A DNA stretch of 38,597 nucleotides from Akkermansia muciniphila (lineage in GTDB: Bacteria; Verrucomicrobiota; Verrucomicrobiia; Limisphaerales; BJHT01). The position numbers were made by a program, and so were the translations under genes. Below are positions 10,901 through 28,112 of this stretch, piece by piece (position 1 is the stretch's first letter; each line of letters begins with the position of its first letter). The notes under the pieces were generated by a model that was not told the DNA's origin, made no database searches, and saw nothing but the letters and a program-made list of their open reading frames with translations. Location: NCBI GenBank assembly GCA_945861535.1, contig CAMAUZ010000076.1:1-38597 (forward strand), written 5' to 3'.

Positions 10901-11050
10901 GGCCTGGGTGTCGAAGAGTTTGGGGAAGGGCAGGGGAGGGGCGGCGGGGGCGGCGGGGGCGGGGCGGTTGAAGGGTTGAATCGTTAAGAGTGAAAGGGTG
11001 AAGAGGAGGAGCGCGTGGGCGCGGCGGGCAAGGTGGCGGCGGAGTTGCAT
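7931..11050 (-). CDS. PVC-type heme-binding dehydrogenase-like protein
   Basis: A 1039-residue exported protein. An N-terminal signal (residues 1-35) leads into a Pro/Ala linker. Next comes a beta-propeller of the PVC membrane-bound dehydrogenase type (LPPGFQATLFAAEPDVQNP, GRLWIAENYTY, IVIFEDTDNDGRFD, GLKWGPDGWLYARHG, TTNPWGMDWNEHGEAFF, GGVFLIDWADIGECHD). A HEAT-like alpha-helical middle (about 480-880) follows, then a C-terminal cytochrome domain with CAACH at 908-912, the GPELTGGDRGNLDYLLENL segment and the SLMPEGLLEALT end. These proteins are thought to oxidise sugars or alcohols and pass electrons through heme, but no substrate is established. The start at 11050 is followed by a plausible signal peptide. 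A shorter relative is at 30370-33228. Confidence 0.92.
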   Translation of the reverse strand: MQLRRHLARRAHALLLFTLSLLTIQPFNRPAPAAPAAPPLPFPKLFDTQATNAQPLTPPLDALKLLKLPPGFQATLFAAEPDVQNPIAMAWDSRGRLWIAENYTYAESKVGFDRSVRDRIVIFEDTDNDGRFDKRTVFWDGGQLLTSIELGFGGVFALCPPNLLFLPDRNGDDVPDSEPIVLLDGFETDRIRHNIANGLKWGPDGWLYARHGITSTSTVGKPGAPESERTKMNCGIWRYHPVRKIFEPVAHGTTNPWGMDWNEHGEAFFINTVIGHLWHVIPGAHYRRMFGEALDPHAYGFLEQHADHFHWDTREKWSDIRAKGVTDTTSLAGGGHAHSGLMIYQGDNWPDEYRGAVFTVNLHGHRVNMDRLERRGSGYVGKHAPDFLTTTDPWFRGLDLTYGPDGGVFLIDWADIGECHDNDGIHRTSGRIYKITYGQPTKPEVHNIAKLDDANLVALLTHKNEWFARQARQLLQQRAAAGRPGALLAVALKRLVATSTNSTHRLRSLWTLHSIGEADDAWLRARLGDRDEPIRVAAIRALIDALPLNNAATVGPQSRSPLGFAALARLERSALVRLAFASALPRLPLADRPAIAKALLSRAEDAQDHNLPLVLWNGIKSLAEANPAALATLATDSKIPLIQRNVARRFAEQIETFGLHLDSLLAATLKSDSPESTAEILTGTAEGLRGRRKAPKPANWDAIAQQFATSTNPALTDRLRDLSILFGDGRALDDIRRIALDGSIELAGRRAALQTLVDQRAPDLRKVCEQLLGVRELAGIAARGLGLTDDPAIGELLAKRYSGLYSSARPDVIATLVSRPSFAKALLAHVGPDAKQIPRADISAFHARQIRSFNDPALTAKLTEVWGVLRDSAADKQQLIAKWKTRLTPAVVASGNASQGRAVFNVACAACHRLYGDGGSIGPELTGGDRGNLDYLLENLADPSALVPADYLMSVITLKDGRTLNAVIGARTDRTLTLQTMTEKLTLERADVKSIEESKLSLMPEGLLEALTETQVRDLIAYLMSKGPVALPVPTPPGK

Positions 11051-11118: not shown

Positions 11119-11163
11119 TTGTAGGAGACGACGTTAGGAGACTCTAACTTTTTCCCCGGGAGG
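11119..11163. repeat. fragment of the MITE-like repeat
   Basis: TTGTAGGAGACGACGTTAGG and the following GAGACTCTAACTTTTT resemble the left end of the two fuller copies at 11229 and 15077. The right half is not found before the next copy begins, so this appears to be a truncated or nested copy. It lies 68 bp upstream of the minus-strand heme-binding gene. Confidence 0.6.
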
Positions 11164-11228
11164 CGCGGCAGGGTGCCAACGGGTTCGGCGGACGGAAGGG
11201 GAAACGTTGAGAGGCGGACCTCCCGCCG

Positions 11229-11407
11229 TTGTAAGAGTCGAGGTAACGAGACTCGACCTCTTCAGCGCGAGTTACGGACTGAGTCTTGGGGGGCGGACGT
11301 AGGCGAGCCTTGTGGGACCGGAACTTGGTTTCAATATGCGCCCGGAGTGTGGTTGGGCGGACCACTCGTGGAAGGAGGTCAGAGTCTCGTTACCTCGTCT
11401 CCTACAA
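11229..11407. repeat. MITE-like element, copy A (179 bp)
   Basis: Terminal inverted repeats TTGTAAGAGTCGAGG...GAGACTC (11229-11254) and GAGTCTC...TCCTACAA (11382-11407) pair at 24 of 26 positions. The interior is alignable with copy B at 15077-15256, for example ACCGGAACTTGGTT against ACCGGAGCTTGGTT and CCACTCGTGGAAGGAGG against CCACTCGGGGTAGGAGG. It has no coding capacity and no obvious target-site duplication. It fills the divergent promoter region between the heme-binding gene and pgsA, ending 67 bp before the pgsA start. Confidence 0.8.
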
Positions 11408-11474: not shown

Positions 11475-12071
11475 ATGAATCTGCCCAATAAACTGACTCT
11501 GTCGCGGTTTGCGCTCACCGCGCTGTTCTTGCTGGCGGTGTTCTGGCGTTCGCCGATCAATGACACGGCGGCCCTGGTGTTGTTCATCGTGGCGAGTGTG
11601 ACGGACTATTTTGACGGCAAGATCGCGCGGGATCGGAAGTTGGTCACCAATTTCGGAACGCTGATGGATCCGTTGGCGGACAAGATTTTGACCTGCTCGG
11701 CATTCATTGCGCTGGTGGAGCGTTCGCAACTGGGGAATGGCGCGCTGGTGAAGGTCGAGGCGTGGATGGTGGTGATCATTGTGGCGCGCGAACTGGCGAT
11801 CACGGGGCTGCGGCTGCTGGCGGCGTCGAAGAGCGTGGTGCTGGCGGCGGAGCGGTACGGGAAGCACAAGACGGCGTCGCAGATCACGGCGATCATCGCG
11901 CTGCTGCTGGTGGATAGTTGCGTGGAATGGGGGTGGTGGGCCACGACGTGGCTCATGCCCTGGGTGCCGAAGTTCGCGCAGGTGGCGCTGTGGCTTACGG
12001 TGGGGCTGACGTTCACGTCGGGGGCGATTTATCTGTGGCGGAACCGGAAGATTTATCTGGAGGATTTGTGA
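11475..12071 (+). CDS. pgsA: CDP-diacylglycerol-glycerol-3-phosphate 3-phosphatidyltransferase
   Basis: A 198-residue integral membrane enzyme of the CDP-alcohol phosphotransferase family. It makes phosphatidylglycerophosphate from CDP-diacylglycerol and glycerol-3-phosphate. The diagnostic motif is complete: D44, D47-G48, A51-R52, G61, D65 and D69 in TDYFDGKIARDRKLVTNFG and TLMDPLADK. The MNLPNKLTLSRF start is typical of PgsA, which decides ATG 11475 over longer frames. Several hydrophobic segments follow, and the C-terminus ends in a membrane helix plus a short charged tail. pgpA, the next enzyme in the pathway, follows 43 bp downstream on the same strand. Confidence 0.95.
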   Translation: MNLPNKLTLSRFALTALFLLAVFWRSPINDTAALVLFIVASVTDYFDGKIARDRKLVTNFGTLMDPLADKILTCSAFIALVERSQLGNGALVKVEAWMVVIIVARELAITGLRLLAASKSVVLAAERYGKHKTASQITAIIALLLVDSCVEWGWWATTWLMPWVPKFAQVALWLTVGLTFTSGAIYLWRNRKIYLEDL

Positions 12072-12750: not shown

Positions 12751-12808
12751 CTTTTGCACAACAGCACGGTGGCAGGCGGCAGGAACCCCAACGGTGTTCG
12801 GAGCCACC

Positions 12809-12935
12809 CGCCTCCTCGCGTCGGCGGCTACGGCGTTCGCGGCGCGCGGCCTTCAGGCCGCTTCAACGTGCGCCAGCAACGGGGCTCGGACACGCCGTTC
12901 GCGCTCCACGTTGAAGCGGCGTAAACGCCGCGCTC
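12809..12935. repeat. palindromic repeat between pgpA and the FKBP gene
   Basis: Arm 12842-12870 (GCGCGCGGCC...TTCAACGTG) pairs with 12907-12935 (CACGTTGAAGCGGC...) at 25 of 29 positions. Just before it, 12809-12832 (CGCCTCCTCGCGTCGGCGGC...) is the reverse complement of the repeat family seen at 18171 and 28027. With the palindrome at 12644, this means the 328-bp spacer between converging genes is made almost wholly of repeat DNA. Confidence 0.7.
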
Positions 12936-15076: not shown

Positions 15077-15256
15077 TTGTAGGAGTCGAGGTAACGAGAC
15101 TCTGCCTTTTTCTGCGTGGGGCGCGGGCTGAGTTTCGGGGGCTGACTTGGGTGCGGCGTCCGGGACCGGAGCTTGGTTGCAAGACGCGGCGTGCGGTGGT
15201 TTTGGACGGGCCACTCGGGGTAGGAGGCTAGCGCCTCGTTACCTCGTCTCCTCCAA
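15077..15256. repeat. MITE-like element, copy B (180 bp)
   Basis: The left end TTGTAGGAGTCGAGGTAACG and right end CGTTACCTCGTCTCCTCCAA are inverted copies with few mismatches. In this copy the inverted repeat extends outward (CACCC before, GGGTG after). The interior aligns with copy A. It lies in the 334-bp spacer between the DUF1501 gene and the secreted protein gene, 121 bp before the start of the latter, and could supply or block a promoter there. Confidence 0.8.
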
Positions 15257-18170: not shown

Positions 18171-18248
18171 CCTCGTAACCGCTGCCGTGAGGAGGCGGAC
18201 GCTGGGATGGGTCCGGGCCTCCGCCTCCTCACGCCAGCGGCTACGAGG
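18171..18248. repeat. 29-bp-arm palindrome after recF, possible terminator
   Basis: Arm 18171-18199 (CCTCGTAACCGCTGCCGTGA...) pairs with 18220-18248 at 27 of 29 positions around a 20-base loop. It begins two bases after the recF stop, well placed to end recF transcription, though no T-tract follows. The same sequence family occurs at 12809-12832 and 28027-28056, and a shorter relative begins at 18281. Confidence 0.8.
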
Positions 18249-18252
18249 GTTG

Positions 18253-18280
18253 GTACCGCAGGCGTCCTCGGCTGCGGTAC
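18253..18280. repeat. short GTACCGCAG hairpin
   Basis: GTACCGCAG (18253-18261) and CTGCGGTAC (18272-18280) form a perfect nine-base stem. The core shares GCAGGCGTCCTCG with the long palindrome at 12644. It lies between recF and the end of the converging minus-strand operon. Confidence 0.65.
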
Positions 18281-18342
18281 GTAGCCGCCGCCGTGAGCAG
18301 GGGGACCGGTTTCGCGGCGTGGTCGTCCGCCGCCGCCGCCGG

Positions 18343-28026: not shown

Positions 28027-28112
28027 CTCGTAGCCGCCGACGTGAGGAGGCGGACGGCCTCGCCGCAGCGCCCAATCCGCCTGCCAACGTCCGCCTCGTC
28101 GGCGTCCGCCTC
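28027..28112. repeat. CGTAGCCGCCG-GAGGAGGCGGA palindrome
   Basis: The left arm CTCGTAGCCGCCGACGTGAG and following GAGGCGGACG (28027-28056) pair with CGTCCGCCTCGTCGGCGTCC (from 28088) with one three-base gap. It is the same family as the palindrome after recF (18171). It lies in the 717-bp region upstream of both xylB (minus) and the DUF1501 gene (plus). Confidence 0.7.

Follow-up and report, generated by a model that had tools for sequence, protein, structure and literature searches.

Repeated elements of about 180 bp in a Limisphaerales genome are probably long-spacer REPINs, likely spread by a RAYT transposase and now apparently orphaned

The short elements that recur in the window analysed here, that is the whole contig of 38,597 nucleotides, are most probably REPINs, a reading to which we give a probability of about 85%: pairs of GTAG-tagged REP hairpins in inverted orientation around a long conserved spacer, likely spread by a RAYT and now orphaned. 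These elements are non-autonomous. The window is contig C76 of the host genome, a 7.94-Mb draft in 169 contigs which is 96.6% complete (hereafter G000), and comparisons within the genus were made with a congener, G001. The original prediction described two MITE-like copies of about 180 bp and a third left end, and all three lie where it had placed them (Table 1). What stands of the term MITE-like is that the elements are miniature, non-autonomous, multicopy, inverted at their ends and polymorphic between species; the mechanism does not stand, because target duplications are absent, end subtypes are mixed, the hairpins covary and the likely partner is a RAYT.

Table 1. Positions in the window of the features assigned to the putative REPINs, with the evidence for each.
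Feature	Position	Strand	Evidence or remark
REPIN copy 1, full-length, 179 bp (REP, conserved spacer, inverted REP)	11229..11407	+	one of 53 or more full-length copies in G000; site empty in congener G001
Copy 1, left REP hairpin GTAAGAGTCGAGGTAACGAGACTC, 1 mismatch, in GTAG tag	11231..11254	+	hairpin pattern scan
Copy 1, spacer, conserved within the genus	11255..11381	+	mean column conservation 0.80, 99 copies
Copy 1, right REP hairpin GTAGGAGACGAGGTAACGAGACTC	11382..11405	-	hairpin pattern scan
Solo left REP TTGTAGGAGACGACGTTAGGAGACTC	11119..11144	+	pattern scan and similarity; absent in G001
REPIN copy 2, full-length, 180 bp	15077..15256	+	similarity to copy 1
Copy 2, left REP hairpin GTAGGAGTCGAGGTAACGAGACTC, consensus	15079..15102	+	hairpin pattern scan
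Copy 2, right REP hairpin GGAGGAGACGAGGTAACGAGGCGC, degenerate, 2 mismatches	15231..15254	-	hairpin pattern scan

The two full-length copies of the window are 76% identical to each other over their full length, and their termini form an inverted repeat of 26-27 bp with the consensus TTGTAGGAGTCGAGGTAACGAGACTC. The solo left end, which is 80% identical over 50 nt to the copy at 15077 and whose likeness to the full copies extends to about position 11168, is the remnant of a degraded copy or a singlet. A 24-nt hairpin pattern, with up to 3 mismatches allowed, has 5 matches in the window and none in 100 dinucleotide shuffles of it, and the 15-mer GAGGTAACGAGACTC, with up to 1 mismatch, is found 94 times in G000 against 0 for the reversed-pattern control; chance is thus excluded. 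Copy 1 sits between the starts of two divergent genes, a minus-strand DUF7133/cytochrome c gene (start at 11050) and a CDP-alcohol phosphatidyltransferase gene (pgsA-like, start at 11475). Copy 2 lies between a minus-strand gene that has no Pfam match, with its start (14955) 121 bp from the left end of the element, and a DUF1501 gene, with its stop end (15290) 34 bp past the right end. The distances to gene starts given in the original prediction are correct, and we agree with it that the window holds no transposase; the leftward similarity that it suggested for some 70 bp beyond both copies was not found, the gap-free match reaching only 9 bp further on that side.

Among the loci fetched, a profile search put the number of full-length copies at 53 or more for G000 and 46 or more for G001, the latter being a sampled number, and BLAST with copy 1 as query found about 40 near full-length copies in G000 at 71-82% identity. 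Exact class A REPs number 149 in G000 and 255 in G001, and the latter genome also carries tandem arrays of the element with a period of about 205 bp. The family therefore neither consists of the window copies alone nor lacks polymorphism, the two outcomes that had been named as contrary to a mobile family, since besides these numbers site 1 is empty in the congener. Beyond the genus, in other families of the order, the end motif alone is shared with the element. The pattern GTAGGAGNCGASGTNASGAGNCTC was found in 50 of 146 genomes of the order (reversed control, 0), and almost every named record that contains it bears the label Limisphaerales, Pedosphaera, Verrucomicrobiales or other Verrucomicrobia, which makes it most likely that the host belongs to this group.

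At site 1, G001 has flanks that are 90-92% identical, separated by unrelated sequence of about 70 bp in which both the solo end and the element are missing, so that this site is a presence/absence polymorphism between the two species. Site 2 is rearranged in G001: its left flank is found on a different contig, and the REPIN that adjoins the DUF1501 gene, at the end where G000 has its own, is shorter there, at about 105 bp. Synteny between the two genomes breaks at or beside the REPIN of site 2 (G001:C264, G001:C102; L376, L377), as if REPINs were recombination points. Two further well-preserved copies of G000 (L002 and L003) have no complete counterpart at the corresponding position in G001, and about eleven REPIN sites are common to the two genomes.

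Each end of the element reads, from 5' to 3', GTAG, a 5-bp stem, GA, one base pair, a GTNA loop, one base pair, GA and the complement of the stem. In a set of 603 distinct sites, gathered without constraint on the stem, 298 have C-G and 286 have G-C as closing pair, which is of Watson-Crick type in 97%, against 50% expected if the two sides were independent; stem pair 4-17 is of Watson-Crick type in 77% against 33% expected, with T-A, C-G and A-T all common. The internal GA/GA dinucleotides are present in 363 of the approximately 383 sites whose stem and closing pair are intact. Of the 99 full copies, 23 combine a G-C end with a C-G end, and thus opposite subtypes, and each hairpin is still locally paired. 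This covariation, together with the local pairing of opposite-subtype ends, indicates that the conserved unit is the single hairpin and not a pair of matching arms. Close REP pairs are inverted with GTAG outside in 51 of 59 cases in G000 and 48 of 60 in G001; the length from GTAG to CTAC is 170-179 nt in 47 of these 51 and 44 of these 48 pairs, and elsewhere in the order it is mostly 50-110 nt. The spacer measures about 128 bp and is conserved across the 99 copies (Table 1). Some degeneration is seen in the REPs of the window. Of five REP variants tested, two have no stable fold alone by DNA energy rules, which may not credit tandem G.A pairs.

The candidate partner enzyme was found only by inspecting the interiors of REP pairs 640-750 bp apart; in two other genera (G022 and G011) such inverted pairs, at distances of about 690-750 bp, enclose a RAYT-like protein of 190-200 aa, and inside one wide REP pair (G068:C44, L177) a RAYT is absent. 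The protein carries the motifs MPDH(L/V)HLVW and CFYxxxNPVRAEL, which by alignment correspond to the HxH motif and the catalytic Tyr. All 19 members tested match NF047646 REP_Tyr_transpos (best 1.3e-17), and the two that are individually listed score 38 and 45 bits, under the model cut-off of 80; Pfam Y1_Tnp gives no match even at E 0.01 for 17 of the 19 and only 0.0044 for the other two. Among solved structures, the only PDB match of the RAYT profile is E. coli TnpAREP (4er8, E 1.9e-7), and an AlphaFold model built from 4 sequences was unusable (mean pLDDT 37). The subfamily is present in 31 of the 146 genomes of the order, and in most of the loci fetched inverted hairpins stand close on both sides of the gene.

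REP stems moreover correspond to groups of RAYTs. The stems fall into five classes and one unassigned group, each of which a single branch sets apart from the rest of the RAYT tree; REP class changes 5 times on this tree, which is the minimum, against a mean of 14.1 after shuffling (0 of 200 shuffles). Such matching clades are the pattern expected of RAYT/REP co-divergence, which has been reported for Pseudomonas and others (PMC3116915, PMC6006769). RAYT and class A REP also co-occur across genomes (23/8/27/88, Fisher p 3e-7), a test which is indicative as the genomes are related; the association is incomplete, some REP-rich genomes (G009, G076, G096 and G104) being without a RAYT. Pfam Y1_Tnp was also tried as a probe for the partner and was rejected: it gave 17 genes in G000 and G001, none of them flanked by class A REP.

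Some observations concern the neighbourhood of these genes and their relatives. Of 11 class A RAYT genes, at least 5 adjoin type II restriction-modification genes of the Eco57I/TaqI_C, MmeI or BglII types (L181, L182, L185, L186, L192); a search of 114 other REP loci did not recover the C-terminal motif of the Eco57I-like protein, and at L179 a REP overlaps the 3' end of a methylase gene. Another genome of the order, G014, has about 30 Y1_Tnp matches, many of which cover only profile positions 6-62, which suggests a multicopy or truncated IS200-like family.

Within the genus, the RAYT subfamily was not found in the 169-contig draft of G000, where there are only distant Y1 homologues (E about 3e-5), and G001 has one close member only (L199), which is flanked by class C REP. 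A class A cognate RAYT was thus not seen in the draft assemblies of G000 and G001, and neither class A nor class C REP was found near a distant RAYT-like gene of G001 (L387) or near distant Y1 genes of G000 (L386, L389). Class C REP has 192 exact sites in G000, where its RAYT was not found, and 205 in G001, where it is present. In the window the class C REP GTAGCCGNCGASGTNASGAGNCGG occurs once exactly, once with 1 mismatch and three times in degenerate form (28030-28053 on the plus strand, 12808-12831 on the minus strand, and 18175-18304). The region of a Y1_Tnp gene of G000 (L132:1893-3564) contains several large inverted repeats with arms of 60-65 nt, CCGGGGGC...AGCGAGGAACGAG...GCCCCCGG, which are unrelated to class A REP and are probably another RAYT or IS200-like repeat family.

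In usual MITEs a DDE transposase reads the ends as double-stranded inverted repeats, and target duplications are made. An element derived by deletion from a DDE insertion sequence, bounded by terminal inverted repeats of 26 bp and moved in trans as double-stranded DNA, would agree with perfect consensus repeats of 26-27 bp and with the 180-bp size, the many copies and the conserved interior, but it is very improbable here and is already largely refuted: 96 of the 99 full copies have a target duplication of zero, equal to the mismatched-flank control, the ends of opposite subtypes are each paired locally, the hairpins covary, and the genes framed by such ends in relatives are, in the loci fetched, RAYTs. 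Host selection is also unlikely as an explanation; in that view each copy would be maintained as a signal made of structured RNA or DNA, such as a promoter or 3'-end element serving the gene beside it, and its mobile origin would be incidental. In eight orthologous pairs the terminal REPs differ between the two species by 7.2% and the spacer by 17.5%, a comparison that is biased, the G001 copies having been chosen by similarity; the REPIN that both species carry at the corresponding end of the DUF1501 gene and the single strand of the whole element, which folds better than shuffles, would likewise speak for host selection. Against it, the consensus fold of the whole element shows covariation in only 2 of 35 pairs (covariation term +0.18), an Rfam search of the region gave no match above chance, and site 1 lacks the element in the congener. 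A reading of the whole element as a long hairpin or structured RNA was rejected, as covariation support is absent. In the same eight pairs, deviations of the terminal REPs from the consensus number 29 in G000 and 2 in G001, which could reflect decay in G000 or selection bias in the fetching of copies; these counts were kept out of the evidence because the G001 copies were selected by similarity.

A family that is still mobile is a possibility that we consider less likely than not; the enzyme driving it in trans would be either the class C RAYT found in G001 or one of class A that dropped out of the drafts at repeat-flanked contig ends. In favour of it are the 255 exact class A REPs and the tandem arrays of G001, the polymorphism of site 1, and the ease with which repeat-framed genes such as RAYT are lost from draft assemblies, here of 169 and 730 contigs; yet most copies are only 71-82% identical to copy 1, so that a recent burst is not visible, and each RAYT clade pairs with its own REP class. 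The REPIN reading, with a population that is probably now orphaned or nearly so, is the one that we retain.

According to this reading, a RAYT (TnpAREP, a HUH/tyrosine transposase) would recognise each folded REP on single-stranded DNA through the GTAG guide, the stem with its tandem G.A and the GTNA loop, would cleave next to it, and would copy or move the REP pair elsewhere without target duplication. In E. coli, REPs (Y, Z1, Z2) are recognised via a conserved AA-GC mismatch in the stem (PMC8266576), and by analogy the tandem G.A mismatch may play the same part here. The cognate enzyme would be the RAYT of stem class A (GAGNC), which is flanked by REPs in other genera and is missing from the G000 assembly; as a consequence, the population of G000 is most likely orphaned and would consist of relics of past transposition, shaped by local duplication and decay. 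We infer that a RAYT moved the G000 copies, and that it was lost rather than missed by the assembly.

The elements resemble the REPINs and BIMEs of Pseudomonas and Escherichia (PMC3116915, PMC3733652) in their inverted pairs of GTAG hairpins, many copies, tandem clusters, singlet remnants and association with RAYTs, but differ from them in the spacer, which is about 128 bp long and conserved in the genus and not short and variable, in the obligate tandem G.A stem and GTNA loop, and in that the cognate RAYT was not found in the host assembly. REPIN spacers have been described as short and highly diverse (PMC8049555); this feature, which is not shared here, is descriptive and not mechanistic, hence the element is filed as a REPIN variant. 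The enzymes share with RAYT/TnpAREP (NF047646; E. coli, 4er8) the HxH and Tyr motifs (MPDHLHLVW, CFYxxxNPVRA), a length of about 190 aa and flanking by a REP class of their own, whereas the two members listed individually score under the model cut-off and the subfamily is mostly missed by Pfam Y1_Tnp. The REP of E. coli (PMC8266576) likewise combines a conserved internal stem mismatch with mixed REP subtypes within one element, but its stems are different, the mismatch here being a tandem GA/GA one pair below the GTNA loop. In the phylum, the GTAG-20 repeats of Opitutus terrae (Verrucomicrobia), mostly tagged GTGG, are also GTAG-type REPs (PMC3733652), compared here by description only. Classical MITEs of DDE insertion sequences are alike in being short, non-autonomous and inverted at their ends, but the present elements lack target duplications, end in single-strand hairpins of mixed subtypes and have a HUH/tyrosine partner.

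The set formed by a long conserved spacer, an obligate tandem G.A REP, a RAYT subfamily under curated cut-offs and an apparently orphan population is unusual. As a speculation, to which we give little weight, hosts might use long REPINs after loss of the transposase, with the REP ends and the 128-bp spacer under selection at many sites, so that a mobile population would become a host regulatory repeat. The analysis adds a RAYT/REP family in an order that is known mainly from metagenomes. Its stems and transposases, which diverged together in at least five classes, offer a natural series on how RAYTs read hairpins, and an orphan-like population of long REPINs beside genera that bear the enzyme makes the persistence of REPINs without a RAYT testable.
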